A DNA stretch of 64,000 nucleotides from Bacteroidia bacterium (GTDB lineage Bacteria; Bacteroidota; Bacteroidia; Cytophagales; JAAEPT01). Numbering within the stretch: position 1 is the first letter of the stretch; every line of letters starts with the position of its first letter. This document shows positions 1,926 to 57,541 of this stretch, in pieces. The notes below the pieces were generated by a model. It was given only the letters and a program-made list of their open reading frames with translations, was not told the DNA's origin and made no database searches. The stretch lies in assembly GCA_030431525.1 (NCBI GenBank), contig JAUIJC010000002.1:62001-126000 (forward strand), written 5' to 3'. The position numbers were made by a program, and so were the translations under genes.

Positions 1926-2918
1926 ATGACCATTCAAGACATAGCCAAGGAGCGGATTCTCATTCTCGACGGAGCGATGGGAACGATGATTCAACGCCAC
2001 AAGTTGGAGGAAGAGGATTTTAGGGGAGAGGTGTTCAAGGATCATCCTTCGCCGTTGAAGGGAAACAATGACTTGCTTTCCATCACCCGTCCGGACATCA
2101 TCAAGGATATCCATCGCCAATATTTCGAGGCAGGAGCCGACATCGTAGAGACCAATACTTTCTCGGGAACTTGGATTGCCCAAGCCGATTATGGGTTAGA
2201 GTCTGCCGTGTACGACATCAATTACCAATCGGCCAAGATTGCTCGTGAGGTAGCCGACGAGATGACCGCCAAGGAGCCGAATAAGCCTCGTTTTGTGGTG
2301 GGAACCATGGGGCCTACCAACCGTACGGCTTCCATTTCTCCAGATGTGAACGACCCTGGTTATCGCGCCATTACTTTCGATCAACTGGTTTCGGCCTATA
2401 AAGACCAAGCTTTGGCTTTGATCGAAGGAGGATGTGATTTGCTGATGGTGGAGACCATTTTTGACACCTTGAATGCCAAGGCGGGATTGTTCGCCATTGA
2501 AGAGGCTTTTGAGGAGAAAGGTGTAGAAATGCCCGTCATGGTTTCTGGTACAATTACGGATGCCAGCGGACGTACATTGTCAGGTCAAACTTCTGAGGCC
2601 TTCTTGATTTCCGTTTCACATTTGCCACTGTTCAGTATTGGTTTGAACTGCGCCTTGGGTTCCAAGGATATGCAACCGTATGTCGATGTGTTGGCGAAAA
2701 AAGCGGACTTCATGGTTTCTGCCCACCCGAATGCTGGTCTTCCAAATGAGTTTGGTCAATACGATGAAACTCCAGAGGACATGGCAGAGCAGTTAAGGGA
2801 GTTTTTGGATGCTGGGATGCTAAATGTTTTGGGTGGTTGTTGTGGAACAACTCCTGACCACATTAAAGCGATGGCGGAATTGGCCAAAGACTTTAAACCG
2901 AGGGTGGTTCATGGTTGA
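1926..2918 (+). CDS. metH: Methionine synthase, homocysteine-binding N-terminal module (split MetH)
   Basis: [23 protein letters not shown] and [11 protein letters not shown] zinc-binding motif; 330 aa. Confidence 0.93.
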
Positions 2919-2935
2919 TAGTTGATGGTTCATAG
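2905..2935. repeat. GGTTCATGGTTGATAGTTGATGGTTCAT tract (left arm flanking the four-helix-bundle gene)
   Basis: Inverse complement of the CCATCAACCATGAACCATTAACCATGAAC tracts at about 3390-3420 and 3467-3495. Confidence 0.75.
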
Positions 2936-2991
2936 TCCTGTAGGACGGCAGACGTTTGCGACTGTTTTATTGAGCTATAAATCTTTAGAAA

Positions 2992-3369
2992 ATGGCATTT
3001 AGTTTTGAACGATTGGAAGTTTGGAAAAAGGCTATAGAATTGAGCAAGGATGTTCATTTTCTTACCAAGAGTTTTCCAAAAGACGAATTGTTCGTGCTGT
3101 CAAGCCAAATGAAAAGAGCGACTGATTCCATCTCCCTTAATATTGCTGAAGGGTCATTTGGACAGACCAAAAAGGAGTTTACTCGATTTCTGGTAATAGC
3201 ACAGCGGTCAGCCTTAGAAGTTGTGACCTGTTGTTATTTGGCAAGGGATAGAGGATACATTGATCAGAATCAATTCAGTGCGTTTTATACTCGCTTGGAG
3301 AGTTTGACCAAAATGATTCAAGCCTTAAAAAACTCCCTGAAAGAAAATAACGAGCATGGAAGGAAGTAA
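2992..3369 (+). CDS. Four-helix-bundle protein (23S rRNA IVS / S23-like family)
   Basis: FERLEVWKKAIELSKDVHFLTKSFPKDELFVLSSQMKRATDSISLNIAEGS is diagnostic of the family. Confidence 0.93.
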   Translation: MAFSFERLEVWKKAIELSKDVHFLTKSFPKDELFVLSSQMKRATDSISLNIAEGSFGQTKKEFTRFLVIAQRSALEVVTCCYLARDRGYIDQNQFSAFYTRLESLTKMIQALKNSLKENNEHGRK

Positions 3370-3495
3370 TGGCTGATACTCTGGTGAGTACCATCAACCA
3401 TGAACCATTAACCATGAACTAATAACGAGCATGGAAGGAAGTAATGGCTGATACTCCGGTGAGTACCATCAACCATGAACCATTAACCATGAACC
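3346..3495. repeat. Tandem duplication, 75-bp unit x2
   Basis: AATAACGAGCATGGAAGGAAGTAATGGCTGATACTCTGGTGAGTACCATCAACCATGAACCATTAACCATGAAC starts at 3346 and again at 3421, nearly identical. Confidence 0.95.
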
Positions 3496-3499
3496 GATA

Positions 3500-6211
3500 A
3501 TGAGCTTACATCCAGATTACTCCGGAGTTTATAAATATAAGTGGGACAATGTTCCGCCGATGAAATTGTCTGGCCTTGAGCCATTGGTGGTCACGCCAGA
3601 CATGAACTTCATCAACGTTGGTGAGCGTACCAACGTAACGGGTTCCCGCAAGTTCTTGCGCCTTATTAAGGAGGAGCAATTCGAAGAGGCTTTGCAAATC
3701 GCTCGCGACCAAGTGGAGGGCGGTGCGCAAATCATCGACGTGAATATGGACGAGGGAATGCTCGATGGCGTGGAAGCCATGACGACTTTCCTCAACCTGA
3801 TTGCCTCCGAGCCTGAAATCGCTCGAGTGCCTGTCATGATTGATAGCTCCAAGTGGGAAATCATCGAGGCGGGTTTGAAATGCGTGCAAGGTAAAGGCGT
3901 GGTAAACTCCATTTCACTGAAAGGAGGTGAGGAGGAGTTTATCGCCCAAGCAAAACGCATCAAGCGCTATGGCGCCGCGACCATAGTAATGGCCTTTGAT
4001 GAGGTCGGTCAGGCGGATACTTATGAGCGCAGGGTTGAAATCGTGAAGCGTTCCTACGATATCTTGGTTGGCCCGAAAGTAAATTTCAAGCCAGAGGATA
4101 TCATTTTTGATTTGAACGTGTTCCCTGTGGCTACGGGCATGGAGGAGCACCGCAAGAACGCCATCGACTTTATTCAGGCGACTCGATGGGTGCGTGAGAA
4201 CCTCCCAGGAGCACACGTTTCAGGTGGTATTTCCAACGTATCTTTCTCCTTCCGAGGAAACAATGTGGTGCGTGAGGCCATGCACTCGGCCTTCCTTTAC
4301 CACGCCATCCGCGAGGGTATGGATATGGGTATCGTGAACCCGACCATGTTGGAGGTTTACGATGACATTCCGAAGGACTTGTTGGAACATGTCGAGGATG
4401 TGTTGTTGGATCGCCGTGATGATGCTACCGAGCGTTTGCTAGAATTTGCGGAAACCGTAAAAGGCACCGCCAAGGAGAAGAAGAAAGATGATAAGTGGCG
4501 CCAAGGAAGTGTTGAGGAGCGTCTTTCTCATGCCTTGGTCAAAGGTATTGTTGAGTTTATTGACGGAGATACCGAGGAAGCCTATCAAAAATACCAGTCG
4601 CCATTGAAGGTGATTGAGGGCCCGTTGATGGACGGCATGAACATCGTTGGTGACTTGTTCGGAAGCGGAAAGATGTTCTTGCCTCAGGTGGTGAAGTCTG
4701 CCCGTGTGATGAAGAAGGCCGTCGCTTACTTGACTCCATATTTGGAGGCGGAAAAAGCTTCAGGCTCTACTCAGGGTAAGATTCTTTTGGCGACCGTAAA
4801 AGGTGACGTTCACGATATCGGTAAGAACATCGTGGGTGTGGTGTTGGCCTGTAACAATTTCGAAATTATTGACATGGGCGTTATGGTGCCTACTGACAAG
4901 ATTTTGGAGAAGGCCAAGGAAGTCAATGCTGATATCATCGGTCTATCGGGTTTGATTACCCCATCCTTGGACGAGATGGTGGATGTAGCCACCCAGATGG
5001 AAAAGCAAGGGCTTAAAACCCCATTGCTGATTGGCGGTGCCACCACTTCCAAGATTCACACGGCCGTGAAGATTGACCCTGTGTATTCTGGGCCAGCCAT
5101 TCACGTGTTGGATGCTTCCAAGTCGGTTCCTGTTGCCCAAGAGCTTTTGAGCAAGGACCGAAGAGAAGGATACTCAGCCAAGGTTAAGGACGATTATGCG
5201 GTGATGCGTGAGAATCACGCCAACCGCAAACGCGATAAAAACTATATTCCTTACGAGCAGGCCAAAGCCAATAAGTTCCAAATTGATTGGGATCAGGCCA
5301 ACATCGTGAAGCCTAAGAAATTGGGCACACAGGTGTTCGCTGGCTATTCCTTGGAGGAGATTCGCCAATACATTGACTGGACGCCATTCTTCTCGACGTG
5401 GATGCTCAAGGGTAAATACCCGAAAATCTTCGAGAATGAAACCATTGGGGCCGAGGCCAAAAAGCTATTTGATGATGCCAACGCCATGTTGGATGAAATC
5501 ATTGAAAGCGATTTGCTCCGTGCCAATGCCATTGTAGGTCTCTATCCAGCCAACACCGTGGGTGATGAGGTGATGGAAGTCTATGACGAGAACGGAGAAG
5601 TGCTTAAGTCCTTCCCGTCATTGCGTCAGCAAGGGCAGAAGGGCAAGAACATCCCGAACATCGCCTTGTGTGACTTCTTGGCGCCTAAGGAAACAGGCAA
5701 ACAGGACTATCTTGGTTTCTTCGCCGTAACCGCTGGTTTGGGTATCGAGCCAATGTTGGAAATGTACGAGAAGGACCACGATGATTACAACGGCATCATG
5801 CTCAAGGCGCTTGCCGACCGTTTGGCTGAGGCGTTTGCCGAGTTGATGCACGAGCGTGTCCGCAAGGAGTTCTGGGGCTATGCTTCTGACGAGCAATTCT
5901 CCAATGAGGAATTGATCAAGGAAGTCTACAAAGGCATCCGTCCGGCACCAGGTTATCCTGCCTGTCCAGACCATACCGACAAACCATTGATTTGGGATTT
6001 GCTGGAAGTTGAAAAGCATACGGGCATTTCCCTCACCACAAGCAACGCCATGTATCCCGCCGCCTCTGTTTCTGGATTCTATTTCGGGAACCCTGAGTCC
6101 AAGTATTTTGGTTTAGGTAAAGTGGCTAAGGATCAAGTAGAGCGATATGCCGAGCTGAAAGGCAAGTCCGCTGAGGAAATGCAAAAGTGGCTACAGGCTA
6201 ATTTGGCGTAA
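3500..6211 (+). CDS. metH: Methionine synthase, pterin/cobalamin/SAM-binding C-terminal module (split MetH)
   Basis: [30 protein letters not shown] (B12-binding DxHxxG); activation-domain motif [15 protein letters not shown]. Confidence 0.96.
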
Positions 6212-6283: not shown

Positions 6284-7240
6284 ATGAAGGTTATAGATCA
6301 TATCAATAATGCCGGAGGAAAAACCCTTTTCTCCATCGAAATCCTTCCTCCTCGAAAAGGAGAGGACATGAAAACCCTTTTCAAGGCCCTTGACCCATTG
6401 GTGGAATTTGACCCTGCTTTTATCGATGTCACCTACCACCGCGAGGAGTACGTTTACCGCGATTTGGGAAATGGCTTGCTGAAAAAGCAGACCACCCGCA
6501 AGCGTCCAGGAACGGTGGGCATCTGCGCTGCTATCCAAAACCATTACCAGGTGGACGCCATTCCTCACTTGATTTGTGGAGGCTTCGACAAGGAGGAAAC
6601 TGAGAATGCTTTGATCGATCTTAGCTTCTTGGGAATCGACAACATCTTGGCCTTGCGTGGTGATGCCATCAAGTCGGAGGGACGTTTCATTCCACATCCT
6701 GAGGGAAATGCCTATGCTTCTGATTTGATTGAGCAGATCATGGACATGAACAAGGGCAAGTACTTGGACGATGATTTGGAGAATCCTGTACACACCAATT
6801 TCAGCATTGGCGTGGCGGGTTACCCAGAAAAGCATTTCGAGGCGCCAAACCTTGATTCGGACTTGGCTTACCTCAAGAAGAAAGTGGATTTGGGCGCCGA
6901 GTACATCGTGACCCAGATGTTCTTCGACAACCAGAAGTATTTCGACTTTGTAGAGAAGTGCAAGGAGGCTGGTATTCACGTGCCGATCATTCCAGGATTG
7001 AAGCCATTCGCTACCAAGGCGCAATTGAACGTCTTGCCAAGTGTGTTCCACATTGATTTACCAAGCGATTTGGTAAAGGCTGTGGAGCAATGCAAGAACA
7101 ACAAAGAGGTGAAAGATATTGGTGTGGAATGGTGTATTCAGCAGTCCAAAGAGCTGAAGGAAGCTGGTGTGCCGGTGTTGCACTACTATACCATGAGCCG
7201 TAGCGAGACCACAAGAAGGGTTGCTGAACAGGTGTTCTAA
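6284..7240 (+). CDS. metF: Methylenetetrahydrofolate reductase
   Basis: FSIEILPPRKGED, LALRGD, YIVTQMFFDN motifs. Confidence 0.95.
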   Translation: MKVIDHINNAGGKTLFSIEILPPRKGEDMKTLFKALDPLVEFDPAFIDVTYHREEYVYRDLGNGLLKKQTTRKRPGTVGICAAIQNHYQVDAIPHLICGGFDKEETENALIDLSFLGIDNILALRGDAIKSEGRFIPHPEGNAYASDLIEQIMDMNKGKYLDDDLENPVHTNFSIGVAGYPEKHFEAPNLDSDLAYLKKKVDLGAEYIVTQMFFDNQKYFDFVEKCKEAGIHVPIIPGLKPFATKAQLNVLPSVFHIDLPSDLVKAVEQCKNNKEVKDIGVEWCIQQSKELKEAGVPVLHYYTMSRSETTRRVAEQVF

Positions 7241-7257: not shown

Positions 7258-7297
7258 AAAAAGCCCCTATGGATTGAGGTCCATAGGGGCTTTTTTC
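7258..7297 (+). terminator. Intrinsic terminator after metF
   Basis: AAGCCCCTATGGA-TTGAGG-TCCATAGGGGCTTTTTT. Confidence 0.92.
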
Positions 7298-7303
7298 GAT
7301 TGT

Positions 7304-7366
7304 GGTTAACGTTCTGTGTATGGTGCGTATCCCGTAGGGTATGCACTATACACGGTGTTGGCATTA
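7304..7366 (-). repeat. attC-like recombination hairpin at the 3' end of a two-gene cassette
   Basis: Minus strand TAATGCCAAC-ACC-GTGTATAGTGCATACCC-TAC-GGGATACGCACCATACAC-AGAAC-GTTAACC: imperfect stem with mismatches/bulge; the outer box TAATGCCAAC is complementary to GTTGGCATTA at the other cassette end. Confidence 0.65.
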
Positions 7367-8308
7367 GTTTTTGCTTTTTTCTTTCTCTTTCAACTCAGCT
7401 TCTGTGAGTGGAACTTCGACTAGTGGAGTATGTTTAACAGAACCATTAGCTAGCTCCTTTAATATTATTCCATGTTTAATTGAGTGCCCTTCTTTTCTTA
7501 GCTTAGACGCTAGGAGTTTTATGTATTCCATTTTAGGAGTTGCATTTACTAATTTAATTAGTTCTTGTCCAATTTTTGTAAAAACGAGAACTTGCAGTTG
7601 CTGTTCAGGTTGATTACTAGGTTTTTCAAGTAACACCAATGATTTTCCTAAAACGAAATAGAGTTGAGATTGCTTTTCTTGTGTTGCAAGGATTCGAAAT
7701 TGTAGATCATTAGCAGTTAAGAAACCTAATTCTTCCAAGAGTAATCGGTCATTAAAATTTAAACCATACTCTTCTTCGAGTAGTTTTTCGTTTTTAAAAT
7801 TTAGAATAAATGAGGTGCCATTTGAGTTTATCGCTAAAGAAGCAAACTTCATAAACGTTTCGGCTTCATGTTTAGATAAGTTCTTAAGAAGTTCTAGGGT
7901 TCTGAGGGAATATGATTTAGGTTTCTTAACTTCACCGGCTAGAATTCTTCCCCATAATTGTTGCATTTCTTCATTAGAAATATCTTCTGCAATATTAAAG
8001 AACCGATTTATCCAATCTTCTTCGACTGGTTCTTCGGAAACCGTTTCTTCTTGGGTCAATTGTTCTGCAGCTATAAAGTTTATGTAATCTAGGTTTTGTT
8101 GTCTTTTGGTTTCCTTATAGATTAATCTTTCTTGAATTCTTTCATTTGGATGAAAGCTTGTACTAGCAGTACTAGGTTCATCTGTGTTATAATCACTTTC
8201 TTTTTTTATTTCAGAATCGTTATTTCCACCACCTAGTCCTTTTTTAATAACTCCAATTAATTTTTCAAGTGGTTTTCCTGCAACTTTTATTATTCTATTG
8301 TTTGACAT
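7364..8308 (-). CDS. DUF2806-like protein
   Basis: WINRFFNIAEDISNEEMQQLWGRILAGEVKKPKSYSLRTLELLKNLSKHEAETF segment typical of DUF2806. Confidence 0.75.
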   Translation of the reverse strand: MSNNRIIKVAGKPLEKLIGVIKKGLGGGNNDSEIKKESDYNTDEPSTASTSFHPNERIQERLIYKETKRQQNLDYINFIAAEQLTQEETVSEEPVEEDWINRFFNIAEDISNEEMQQLWGRILAGEVKKPKSYSLRTLELLKNLSKHEAETFMKFASLAINSNGTSFILNFKNEKLLEEEYGLNFNDRLLLEELGFLTANDLQFRILATQEKQSQLYFVLGKSLVLLEKPSNQPEQQLQVLVFTKIGQELIKLVNATPKMEYIKLLASKLRKEGHSIKHGIILKELANGSVKHTPLVEVPLTEAELKEKEKSKN

Positions 8309-8911
8309 TTAATTCTCTAGTTTTGAAATAGTTTGATGATGAAGTTTTTGAATGTACTGGTCTTTTGCATTTAAATAGGTGTCAAATGAAGTAACAAAAT
8401 TTTGTTGGCTATATGGTCTCGTTCTAACAACAGCTAATAAATTGTTTAGCGCAGTTAAAAGATCGGTGTTATCAATATCAATAAATAAGTGAGTGTAATT
8501 ATTTCCAAATGTGGTAACGGTTTGCTGAACTCTTAAGACTTCCCAATCCGTTTGTTGTCTATTTGCAATTATTTTTTGCCCCAATGAATTTAATGCTTCA
8601 GATAATTCTTTTACAGAATCATGCATGAGTCCACTTGTAAGTATTTTCTTTTCATAGTTCAACGCCTGCTGAGTTGACTTATCCTGCATATCTGCAACTA
8701 TTAGTGTCAGTTTGATAAAAATTATCAAATTCGCTAAGGCAAGTATTGGATTAAAAATCCCACCAAAGTAATCTCCAAATGTCCCCCATATTTGAGGGTC
8801 TTTGGATAAACCACCACCCCAAAAATTAACAATATAAAAAAGTGAAGGAATCATTAAGCAAATGGTTATAATGAAACCAAAAACTATTAAAAATATTTTG
8901 AGTTTATTCAT
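8309..8911 (-). CDS. Two-TM membrane protein with GTFGDYFGGIFNPILALANL motif, resembling putative phage abortive-infection membrane proteins
   Basis: Two hydrophobic helices at the N-terminus, FGDxFGGxxNP motif; directly abuts the downstream DUF2806-like gene. Confidence 0.6.
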   Translation of the reverse strand: MNKLKIFLIVFGFIITICLMIPSLFYIVNFWGGGLSKDPQIWGTFGDYFGGIFNPILALANLIIFIKLTLIVADMQDKSTQQALNYEKKILTSGLMHDSVKELSEALNSLGQKIIANRQQTDWEVLRVQQTVTTFGNNYTHLFIDIDNTDLLTALNNLLAVVRTRPYSQQNFVTSFDTYLNAKDQYIQKLHHQTISKLEN

Positions 8912-8925
8912 ACTTGTTTTTCAAT

Positions 8926-8990
8926 TAATGCCAACAGTTGTATAAACGCACTAGTGACTGTTATTCAGCCCTATATACGCACCACCAAAT
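8926..8990 (-). repeat. Cassette 5' boundary box GTTGGCATTA with adjacent degenerate attC-like hairpin
   Basis: TAATGCCAAC (plus strand) at 8926-8935, then imperfect inverted segment GTATAAACGCACTAGTGACTG ttatt CAGCCCTATATAC. Confidence 0.5.
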
Positions 8991-9137
8991 ATAGCCTCTA
9001 AGATAACAGGAAGCAATTTGGGTAGAAAGGTGCTAATCGCCAAAGGTGTCGATATACAAATCATCCAACTACGTAATAAAAACGAAAAAGGGTAGGCTAT
9101 TGAGCCTACCCTTGAACTTGAAAACTTGGTTTTATTT

Positions 9138-10925
9138 CTACTCCCTCACCACCATCAACCGCTTCACCATCTCCTTATTCTCCGAAAATAGCCTTACCAA
9201 ATAAACCCCTCCACGCAGATTCTCTGTTTGAATGGCTAAGGTATTCAAACGAGCTGGGATGTTATTTTCTTCAAACACCAACTGTCCAGATACACTGTAG
9301 ATTTGGATGTTCACTTGCTCATTTCCGCCAAACAAGGAAACCAACGTGGTGGATTGGTCAGCAGGATTGGGCTCAAGGTAGAAGCTTAGTTCATTGCTGA
9401 ATTGCCCAATGCGGAAGTTGCGAAGGAAGAGTGGTCCTTGGCCTTTGGAATAATTCTCAAAACGGAAGGAGATGTAGCCTTGTAGATTGCCCAAATCCAG
9501 TTGGATGCGCTTGTAATCTTCTTCAAATGGAATGGTCAGCGGGTTTTGATCTGTGGAAACCAAGGAATCACCCGTGAATGTCAGTAGCGGTTTCCACTCG
9601 GGTGAACAGTTCAGGTTGTAGCTGATTTTGAAAGAATCTGTCGGAGAGATGTTTCCGTAGGCCAGCTCAAACTCCATTTCACTGGAGCTGAATAATTTTA
9701 ATAATGGAGAAATCAAGATGGTGGAGTCTCCAATATTTCCTGTGTTGTTGTCTGCCAGCAAGCCATTTTCCCCGTCAATGGTCCAAACCAAATTTGGATT
9801 CGAGGAACTGATCGACCATCCACCTTCTTGGAGGAACAAGCTATCATTGAAATTTTGATAGTAGGGAAGTCCGTAGGCCACACCATCGCCTTCGCCACAG
9901 CAACCTGGAGAACTGAGAAGGGCTTTCCGACGTGGGCTGGTTTCCATGGCCGTTCGCATCCTGTCCTTTTGGTCCTGTGTGAATAGGTTCATGCAAGCGT
10001 CAAAGGTGTAGTCCATGAAGTTTTGAGTCATATCTACACTTCCACAGCTTGATTTAGTGGTTTTCGGACATGAGTTGGTGGCTTCACGTTGGCTTGGCGT
10101 GTCCTCACAATAGTCAGTGCCAAAACAAGAATCGTCATCTCCCCAGATATGAATAAGCCCCAGCCAGTGGCCAATTTCATGGGTACTTGTCCTACCTCGG
10201 TTATAAGATTTATAGCGCGTAAGGGCTGTACCAATATTTCCGAAGGCCCCATGGTCAAGAACGACTCCATCTGTAATGGCATCATCATCAAACCCTGACC
10301 CAATCCCTGGAAGTCCACTGTCATCAGGAAACTGAGCCCAACCGAGAACACTGTTTGAAATTTCAGTGACCCAAATGTTCAAGTATTGGTCACTTGGCCA
10401 ATAGTCAATGGCTTTTAAGGCGTAGTTATCTGAGGAACTGTAGCTGGAATAGGGGAGGTTTGCGGAGTAGGATCGGGTGATGCCGTTGGTGACGTTACCT
10501 TCAGGGTCACGGCTGGCAAGGCAGAATTCAATATTTACGCTGGTGGCCACATCTTTAAAAATAGCTGGAGTGTCTGTGGTATCAGCGTTTTGTCGGTTGA
10601 AGTCCTCGTTTAAAATCTGAATCTGGGAAAGGATTTGTTCGTCGGAAATGTTCGAGGCACCGCCGTTGTGTACTACGTGAACAACTACTGGAATTCGGTA
10701 AACTTCCTCTTCCGTTTCGGCAGTTTTCATGGCCTTTTTAAGGGCAATGCGCTTTTGAAGTTTTTCCTCAAACTGATGACGATGTTTGGCGTAGTTAGGG
10801 TGCTGGTGACACCTAAGGCTGTCATGATATGTAGCATTACAGCGGTTTACTGTTTCTTCCTCGGTTTGAGCAAAAAGGCTGTTCGAAAAAATAAGGAGGC
10901 CGAACAAAAGGAATATGTTTTTCAT
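9138..10925 (-). CDS. M43-family (cytophagalysin/pappalysin-like) secreted zinc metalloprotease with T9SS type A sorting domain
   Basis: HEIGHWLGLIHIWGDD (HExxHxxGxxH), signal peptide MKNIFLLFGLLIFSNSLFAQ, C-terminal FYLEPNPADQSTTL...GGVYLVRLFSENKEMVKRLMVVRE. Confidence 0.92.
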   Translation of the reverse strand: MKNIFLLFGLLIFSNSLFAQTEEETVNRCNATYHDSLRCHQHPNYAKHRHQFEEKLQKRIALKKAMKTAETEEEVYRIPVVVHVVHNGGASNISDEQILSQIQILNEDFNRQNADTTDTPAIFKDVATSVNIEFCLASRDPEGNVTNGITRSYSANLPYSSYSSSDNYALKAIDYWPSDQYLNIWVTEISNSVLGWAQFPDDSGLPGIGSGFDDDAITDGVVLDHGAFGNIGTALTRYKSYNRGRTSTHEIGHWLGLIHIWGDDDSCFGTDYCEDTPSQREATNSCPKTTKSSCGSVDMTQNFMDYTFDACMNLFTQDQKDRMRTAMETSPRRKALLSSPGCCGEGDGVAYGLPYYQNFNDSLFLQEGGWSISSSNPNLVWTIDGENGLLADNNTGNIGDSTILISPLLKLFSSSEMEFELAYGNISPTDSFKISYNLNCSPEWKPLLTFTGDSLVSTDQNPLTIPFEEDYKRIQLDLGNLQGYISFRFENYSKGQGPLFLRNFRIGQFSNELSFYLEPNPADQSTTLVSLFGGNEQVNIQIYSVSGQLVFEENNIPARLNTLAIQTENLRGGVYLVRLFSENKEMVKRLMVVRE

Positions 10926-11107
10926 ATGCCGAAGGCTATCGTTAAAGGTCATTGTAGGTCAGAGCTTTTTAAGCCGTGAAAAGAAAGATTCCCAAAATCA
11001 TGCTTAAAAAACCTCTTACAAAGAAATTGAGGTTTGAATAGTCAAACCTCAAATCTCATTATACATTCGTCATTCATAAAGGTTGTAAACCTTTTATGCT
11101 ATGAAGA

Positions 11108-12061: not shown

Positions 12062-12112
12062 GGCAATAGGGTGTTTGAATCAATAGCCAACTTTCCAAAT
12101 AGAGTGAATGGA

Positions 12113-12224
12113 CCACCGAGTTCACAGAGTCAAGGAGAAAAGGAGGCCTCTTACTCTCAAAAACTCAATGATTTTATAGAGTGAGAGTCTCTGTGCCCTC
12201 CATACCTCTGCGTACTCTGTGGTT
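12113..12224. repeat. 'CCACAGAG' inverted-repeat element, copy A
   Basis: CCACCGAGTTCACAGAGTCAAGGAG ... CCTCTGCGTACTCTGTGG. Confidence 0.8.
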
Positions 12225-12316
12225 CCTTACGAATAATTCTATTCGGAAAGCTCTATGTTAGGCTTTACAAAAATAACAGAAATCACGTCCTTTCAGTTTA
12301 TTCCCACATAAAAGCT

Positions 12317-35004: not shown

Positions 35005-35050
35005 TGTAACTTTGTGGAATGATTAAACTCTTTTCTGAATAGAGTGTTTG

Positions 35051-35161
35051 TACCACAGAGAACACAGAGGAAAGGAGAATAGGAGGCTTTCTATGTTCAA
35101 AACCAACCTGTTTGGAGAATGAGAGCCTCTTAAACCTCTATTCCTCTGGGTTCTCTGTGGT
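35051..35161. repeat. 'CCACAGAG' inverted-repeat element, copy B
   Basis: ACCACAGAGAACACAGAGGAAAGGAGAATAGGAGGC ... AGAGCCTCTTAAACCTCTATTCCTCTGGGTTCTCTGTGGT. Confidence 0.9.
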
Positions 35162-35246
35162 CATTTTGATATCCATTGAATCGAAACCTGCTCAGTTTTC
35201 AATCTTTTCCTTTTTGGGTAATCCTATTATTTGCTCTGACAAGCTC

Positions 35247-47731: not shown

Positions 47732-47807
47732 TATCCAACATTTCTACTAAGAGGGCCTCCTTTCCTCCCCAACGCTGTCAACTTAAGGGTGAACTGGGAT
47801 ATAAATT

Positions 47808-47970
47808 TTAACCACGGAGAAAGGGAGAAAAGGAGCAGGTCATGATTCAGAGGAGAAAAGGCAAAGCCTTTGGAGAGGGAGAGGTGTAGTGTTCTCCTTT
47901 TCTCAACACACCAATCATTTCATTATTGAACAATATTGAGTCTCCCTACCTCCCTTTCTCCGTGGTTAAA
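47808..47970. repeat. 'CCACAGAG' inverted-repeat element, copy C
   Basis: TTAACCACGGAGAAAGGGAG ... CTCCCTTTCTCCGTGGTTAA. Confidence 0.88.
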
Positions 47971-48000
47971 AACCATCCATTGGGCTACTCCCTTGCACGA

Positions 48001-53992: not shown

Positions 53993-54087
53993 TACCACGG
54001 AGGTCACTGAGGAATGGAGGGCACAGAGACAGCCTTCTTTGGCATAACATGTCTCCTTCCCTCCATTCCTCTGTGACCTCTGTGGTT
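53993..54087. repeat. 'CCACAGAG' inverted-repeat element, copy D
   Basis: TACCACGGAGGTCACTGAGGAATGGAGGG ... CCCTCCATTCCTCTGTGACCTCTGTGGTTA. Confidence 0.92.
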
Positions 54088-54101
54088 AAAATTGAACTAG
54101 A

Positions 54102-57423: not shown

Positions 57424-57523
57424 ACAGAAGCCACTGAGGAAAGGAGGTCACAGAGCTTTGAGATGCGAAAAGGAACGTCTATAGGCCTCCTTTCCTCCTT
57501 ATCTCTGTGTCCTCTGTGGTTAA
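57424..57523. repeat. 'CCACAGAG' inverted-repeat element, copy E
   Basis: GCCACTGAGGAAAGGAGGTCACAGAG ... CCTCCTTTCCTCCTTATCTCTGTGTCCTCTGTGGTTA. Confidence 0.88.
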
Positions 57524-57541
57524 TTTTCCCAGCTCCACTGT

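Follow-up and report, generated by a model that had tools for sequence, protein, structure and literature searches.

A probable integron-like mobile gene cassette in Bacteroidota, placed at an attI-like site

Introduction

Integrons, e.g., the chromosomal integrons of Vibrio, combine the integrase IntI with an attI site and attC sites. They carry promoter-poor, one-way cassettes, whose attC is a single-strand hairpin of ~55-200 nt with R and L boxes and a G|TT crossover. The end boxes are complementary in the circular form, and the first site of an array lies beside a tyrosine recombinase. Apart from IntI itself, these traits recur in the cassette system described here, with an attI-like element as the first site. 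The insertion specific to IntI is treated as essential to integron function (PMC8138268). According to the literature, IntI is also known to insert cassettes at genomic sites other than attI, termed attG.

Bacteroidota, a phylum prominent in the sea, in soil and in the gut, is generally considered to be almost free of integrons. IntegronFinder 2.0 recovered one complete Bacteroidetes integron, in Salinibacter, where earlier work had found only integrases without cassettes (PMC9024848), and the 11 taxon-specific attC models include no Bacteroidetes (PMC8352920). For Riemerella, a 2026 study describes homology-free, site-specific uptake of aph(3')-IVb between a 27-bp 5' flank and a 140-bp attC-like 3' flank, and leaves the mechanism open (PMC13148043).

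Results and discussion

A two-gene cassette between metF and a metalloprotease gene

The window, i.e., the whole 64-kb stretch of DNA analyzed here, comes from a genome assembly of 75 contigs that is 99.97% complete and that its related genomes and loci assign to Bacteroidota. Between metF (6284-7240, plus strand) on its left and a metalloprotease gene (9138-10952, minus strand) on its right lies a 1625-bp minus-strand segment at 7310-8934, which runs from G^TT to G^TT and is almost certainly a gene cassette. A preliminary description had drawn the same bounds, and they proved exact, with the G^TT crossovers located at 7309/7310 and 8934/8935. The perfect 10-nt boxes reported at the two ends were likewise found as described: GTTGGCATTA (7357-7366) and TAATGCCAAC (8926-8935) are exact inverse complements, and neither has another exact copy in the 64 kb.

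Both genes of the cassette lie on the minus strand, with sequence and reading frames as claimed before. The first (7364-8308) encodes a DUF2806/TIGR03899-like protein of 314 aa (PF10987, E=1e-56; TIGR03899, 131.9 bits, under the cut-off of that model), and its stop codon (7364-7366) sits within the outer box, R'', as had been noted. The second (8309-8911) encodes a 200-aa membrane protein in which the predicted FGDYFGGIFNP motif is present. A family search with the membrane protein gave no match above cut-off, and distant relatives of it occur in 6 genomes of the order. In other genomes, a relative of one gene was never accompanied by a relative of the other, and DUF2806 homologues lay neither in cassettes nor beside the membrane gene. 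Plasmid matches to DUF2806 reached ~33% identity at best among the matches listed, in an uninformative context, and a fold prediction made without an alignment (pLDDT 38) was uninformative as well.

The cassette ends in an attC-like hairpin

The attC-like site occupies 7302-7365, with the plus strand as the folding (bottom) strand. Read on the minus strand, which is that of the genes, it consists of R'' AATGCCAAC, then ACC, the hairpin, AGAAC and GTTAACCAC. In comparison to shuffled sequences, the plus strand folds with z-scores of -3.4 to -3.9 (-3.9 for the DNA fold) and was equaled by 0 of 200 shuffles, and the minus strand folds more weakly (z -1.7). The attC model R1 scored the site at 76.4 bits (E=3e-20) on the plus strand and at 24.1 bits on the minus strand, and 7302-7365 was its only match in the host genome. 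The model R2 found the site in a genome scan and missed it under default filters; Rfam returned chance matches only for the window, with no family at its gathering score. In the preliminary description the attC arose only upon circularization. The hairpin itself was confirmed, and the restriction to the circle was not, because GTTAACC adjoins the hairpin and a full attC is already present at 7302-7365. The core boxes of the site, TGCCAAC/GTTGGCA, depart from the consensus RYYYAAC/GTTRRRY.

A hairpin family with an exact cassette end rule

The exact pattern GTGTATRGYGCGTAN{3,33}TATACACNNNGTT, searched for in 85,488 species genomes, gave 66 loci, which lie almost exclusively in Bacteroidota and, with two exceptions, share a 44-nt span. 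Read in the direction of the genes, almost all of them have the form N5-YAAC-3 nt-hairpin-5 nt-GTT, with core boxes reduced to YAAC/GTTR. The sequence outside the hairpin varies by locus, as expected if every hairpin ends another cassette. In the cassette-end test, the 9-nt 3' end N6-AAC had to recur as GTT-N6 at the 5' end. An exact inverted 9-nt box stood at the far cassette end for 41 of 63 testable sites, the window included, in comparison to 1.3 expected with shuffled N6; for the other 22 of the 63 hairpins the partner end was not visible.

Cassette starts nearly always continue with (A/C)AT. We called 115 cassettes in 53 loci (median 790 bp); the longest ORF runs in the predicted direction in 110 of them, and 42 complete attC of 56-202 nt lie between neighboring cassettes. 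Within arrays, R'' and R' pair in situ no better than shuffles (2.07 versus 1.94), which is expected, since R' belongs to the next cassette. As the two N6 of a cassette, at its start and at its end, are exact complements, circularization would give a fully paired site.

Covariation was evaluated on 54 attC-like sites, 31 short and 23 long. On the folding strand, 97.7% (short) and 94.5% (long) of the cells of the L-box stem are paired, and cells changed on both sides number 29 versus 3.6 in shuffles for the short class and 81 versus 25.9 for the long one; controls with slid partners fail. Short and long sites alike retain two G.U (G.T) pairs, at identical positions. A fixed G.T is an A.C mismatch on the opposite strand, and the fold would therefore be strand-specific. 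These pairs may thus select the strand and apparently set the strand bias here, unlike in classical attC, where extrahelical bases give strand specificity.

The terminator hairpin of metF (7258-7296, plus strand), called from its sequence, borders the attC in the flank outside the cassette, and one-mismatch copies of the end box are above chance in the 64-kb window (13 versus 4.4 expected). Both would suit a hairpin that is itself a terminator or a REP-type palindrome, with inverted boxes by chance. The hairpin is, however, single copy in the host genome and has no T-run, and the paired ends at 41 of 63 sites in other genomes, together with covariation beyond controls, leave this reading a negligible chance. 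The end-box test, 41 of 63 sites versus 1.3, refutes a terminator with chance boxes, and a REP or MITE was rejected on the single occurrence of the hairpin in the host genome.

By sequence comparison, the cassette is delineated as a unit that starts with G|TT-R-N5-(A/C)AT, carries its gene or genes on one strand and ends with N5-Y-AAC, a hairpin that covaries and measures ~55-200 nt, and G|TT. With an end rule of this precision, sequence alone suffices to call cassettes, and a new pool of mobile genes becomes accessible.

Some arrays have further peculiarities. Two loci of one genome (L175 and L176, G431) hold many near-identical cassettes of ~240 bp of the GTTAGGCAC type, which have no long ORF and recur several times in a single array. 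At L061, the first cassette comes after some nine tandem copies of a 39-bp repeat (~2460-2780 in gene orientation); each copy contains GTTATGTGT, as in the cassette start, and the copies resemble repeated attI-like half sites.

A tyrosine recombinase heads related arrays

About 10 of the 66 loci have matches to one family of tyrosine recombinases, and at those loci where the gene can be placed well, it immediately precedes the first cassette and runs in the same direction. In array-bearing genomes an attI-like site lies between the recombinase gene and the array. The order was represented by 199 genomes, of which 81 have a recombinase of this family (called at E<=1e-60), 41 have a match to the attC model and 26 have both, i.e., the recombinase accompanies attC in 26 of 41 genomes in comparison to 55 of the other 158 (p=0.0009). 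Where an attC lies within 45 kb of a family recombinase, it is downstream and co-directional in 26 of 27 cases. Eleven fetched regions from eight genomes contained 73 candidate cassettes on the integrase strand, some of them overlapping or repeated calls, and 0 on the other strand; reversed-sequence controls gave 6.

The array recombinases score 226-231 bits on the XerA/integron-integrase model NF040815, above its cut-off, and in this respect resemble the XerA-type or integron-like YR subgroup. Archaeal XerA members act in chromosome resolution. Against TIGR02249, the array recombinases stayed under the cut-off, with two matching stretches around a middle part that did not align. Judged by these alignments, the array recombinase is an enzyme without the IntI-specific insertion, which makes the system integron-like and not IntI-based. 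An extra N-terminal domain of ~90 aa or more is present in four of five aligned recombinases. A structure model of the array integrase (pTM 0.45), with fold matches to XerA and IntI, adds little to the sequence evidence.

Could a classical IntI integron cassette merely have landed in the window, with an ordinary attC as its hairpin? The logic is the same, with R''/R' boxes, folding on one strand and one-way genes, and IntI does insert at attG sites. However, hairpins of this family hardly occur outside Bacteroidota, in which surveys find almost no integrons, the accompanying recombinase lacks the IntI insertion, and the core consensus is not matched. We therefore consider a classical origin highly improbable.

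We instead propose that the cassette was mobilized by the recombinase family seen in the relatives, which is probable. The bottom strand of the hairpin would fold, a tyrosine recombinase related to XerA and IntI would cut at G|TT, and exchange between the folded site and an attI-like site in double-stranded form would insert the cassette in a single orientation. A search of the host genome turned up XerD and XerC as its two tyrosine recombinases and no member of the array family, and the remark in the preliminary description that no integrase is in view thus holds for the entire host genome. With no matching integrase there, the window cassette is an orphan. Most likely, it would have been inserted by an integrase that was since lost or was supplied transiently.

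attI-like landing elements in the host genome

The right end of the cassette had been taken for a plain box. The box is real (G|TTGGCATTA, 8926-8935, minus strand, followed by ATTG as in other cassette starts), but it is not bare: it is the inner edge of an overlooked element of ~139 bp (8927-9065, minus strand), in which a GTATA-type repeat is followed by AATAACAGTCACTAGTGCGTTTATACAACT|GTT. The element scores 97.5 bits on the model R3, a value that is not independent, since R3 was built from C45:47776, C73:12200, C73:36089 and the window copy itself, C73:70927. R3 finds 8 copies in the host genome, i.e., these four and four independent ones with 33-68 bits (C22:39971, C22:36555, C22:86179 and C20:3028). 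In 361 kb of other genomes it has only two matches, at L093 and L102 (E 0.004 and 0.036), both in the gap between the recombinase stop codon and the first cassette. Because R3 matches nothing but recombinase-adjacent gaps in these 361 kb, we regard the element as attI-like.

The core of the element, TAAACGCC-N-GGCGTTTA, is almost palindromic and has the size of a Xer site; at the NERD site (see below) and in the window the palindrome is degenerate. This similarity, and a host genome with XerC and XerD only, would suit insertion by the host XerC/XerD at dif-like palindromes, as for IMEX phages, with no need for the array recombinase. Against it, a dedicated recombinase heads the arrays elsewhere, R3 hits precisely those sites at L093 and L102 that lie beside a recombinase, and eight copies exceed what is expected of dif. 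Such an origin seems unlikely, and insertion by the array-type recombinase remains our preferred reading.

Each of the eight elements is followed by one or two cassette-type inserts. At four of the eight sites the 3' partner was not found, and a fifth, carrying a NERD-domain protein, pairs at 7/9 positions only. In a sister genome without the cassette, the stretch from the metalloprotease gene to metF would be expected to contain the empty landing site GCGTTTATACAACT|GTTAACCACAATCG. An R3 scan near metF in 12 relatives, all from outside the genus, gave no match and no empty site; none could be demonstrated because close relatives of the same genus were absent from this comparison. Past the attC of both solitary cassettes (L194, C73:33.8-39.8 kb; window 7296-7310), the flank resembles a cassette start (GTTAACCACAATCG; GTTACCAACAATCCCC) and no cassette follows; this flank is possibly a remnant or a feature of the target. 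On C22 (L219, C22:34-40 kb), several attI-like elements are clustered. Two of them precede small lipoprotein genes, one with MORN repeats, with no detectable attC, which suggests cargo that is either decayed or different.

Sibling sites carry defense-type genes

Strong PADLOC matches mark defense-like genes at at least four of the eight sites. The first cassette on contig C45 (~5.9 kb) encodes a metallo-beta-lactamase protein and a trypsin-STAND Avs2 protein (PADLOC E=0); its ends form an exact pair, GTTGTATGC/GCATACAAC, and it has an attC. The second cassette on C45 encodes an Mrr-type nuclease and has its own attC, making a two-cassette array. A fused PARIS AriAB (PADLOC 8e-109) lies between exact ends, GTTACCAGC/GCTGGTAAC, at C73:12 kb, and the NERD-domain protein at C73:36 kb is followed by an attC of 48.9 bits. 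Further cargo comprises an AAA ATPase like AriA/PtuA at the C20 site (PADLOC 9e-28) and an HNH protein with an effector match at C22:86 kb (PADLOC 3e-27); the two other C22 sites carry lipoproteins and no defense genes. As background, ten other window genes gave nothing better than 6e-4.

An antiphage role is suspected for the window pair mainly because sibling sites carry defense-type genes, and we lean toward it on these grounds. The cargo of this real cassette may also be something else, e.g., a toxin-antitoxin or metabolic pair, since PADLOC matched neither window protein, the pair does not co-occur elsewhere and two sibling sites carry lipoproteins. In light of the PADLOC matches at the sibling sites, we give non-defense cargo the smaller, still sizeable, share of probability. 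If the pair is defensive, one might guess, speculatively, that the DUF2806 protein is a sensor or effector and that the membrane protein executes growth arrest. The recurrent attI-like docking sites, with Avs and PARIS among their cargo, offer a practical route to new defense genes.

Comparison with described systems

Taken as an integron cassette, as first proposed, the locus agrees in geometry, with exact end boxes at 41 of 63 sites, covariation, R and L boxes in an imperfect hairpin that folds strand-specifically, one-way genes and complementary ends. The canonical part of the proposal does not stand: no IntI with its specific insertion lies beside an attI, and the core consensus is missed. 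Because these two defining tests fail, the system is set apart as a variant of the integron. Unlike in integrons, the array recombinase lacks the IntI insertion, usually has the extra N-terminal domain of ~90 aa and is encoded co-directionally with its array, and the array core boxes are only YAAC/GTTR.

The locus had also been called CALIN-like. It shares with CALINs an attC in a genome without an integrase, but a CALIN is a cluster of at least two attC, and here a single cassette with one attC occupies one of eight scattered attI-like sites, the two-cassette array being found only elsewhere, on C45. IntI-mediated cassettes at attG sites are similarly solitary and spread over the chromosome; however, the cassettes studied here target a repeated attI-like element of ~140 bp and not a loose genomic site. 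The Riemerella case is also from Bacteroidota, with a short 5' flank, a 140-bp attC-like 3' flank, one site and no homology, whereas the part of that study available to us names no recombinase, attI or cassette end rule (PMC13148043). It fits the cassette system, which could account for such homology-free uptake.

Taken together, the window very likely holds one mobile cassette of a Bacteroidota-wide integron-like system, inserted by a recombinase at an attI-like site, with defense as the likely cargo. This is apparently a cassette system of a separate kind that has not been described so far; our literature search, which covered neither subscription papers nor preprints, found no description of the recombinase, the attI-like element or the end rule. 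Standard detection, with the IntI-specific domain and attC models trained on class 1, seems to miss a whole cassette system of Bacteroidota. Going further, we marginally favor the idea that Bacteroidota hold a second, IntI-independent integron lineage, with an XerA-like recombinase and an extra N-terminal domain, in which attI multiplied in some lineages into scattered docking sites for single antiphage systems. Such sites would form a distributed defense arsenal, and DUF2806 with the membrane protein would be one unrecognized system.

Further features of the window

Within 1926-6211, metH is seemingly split into two genes (1926-2918 and 3500-6211), between which lie a small ORF of the four-helix-bundle type (2992-3369) and, at 3346-3495, a tandem duplication of 75 bp with 97% identity. 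A dispersed repeat of the ACCACAGAGAACACAGAGGAAAGGAG type occurs in both orientations, often as imperfect palindromes, at 12107-12226, 35047-35164, 47754-47971, 53994-54089 and 57424-57525.
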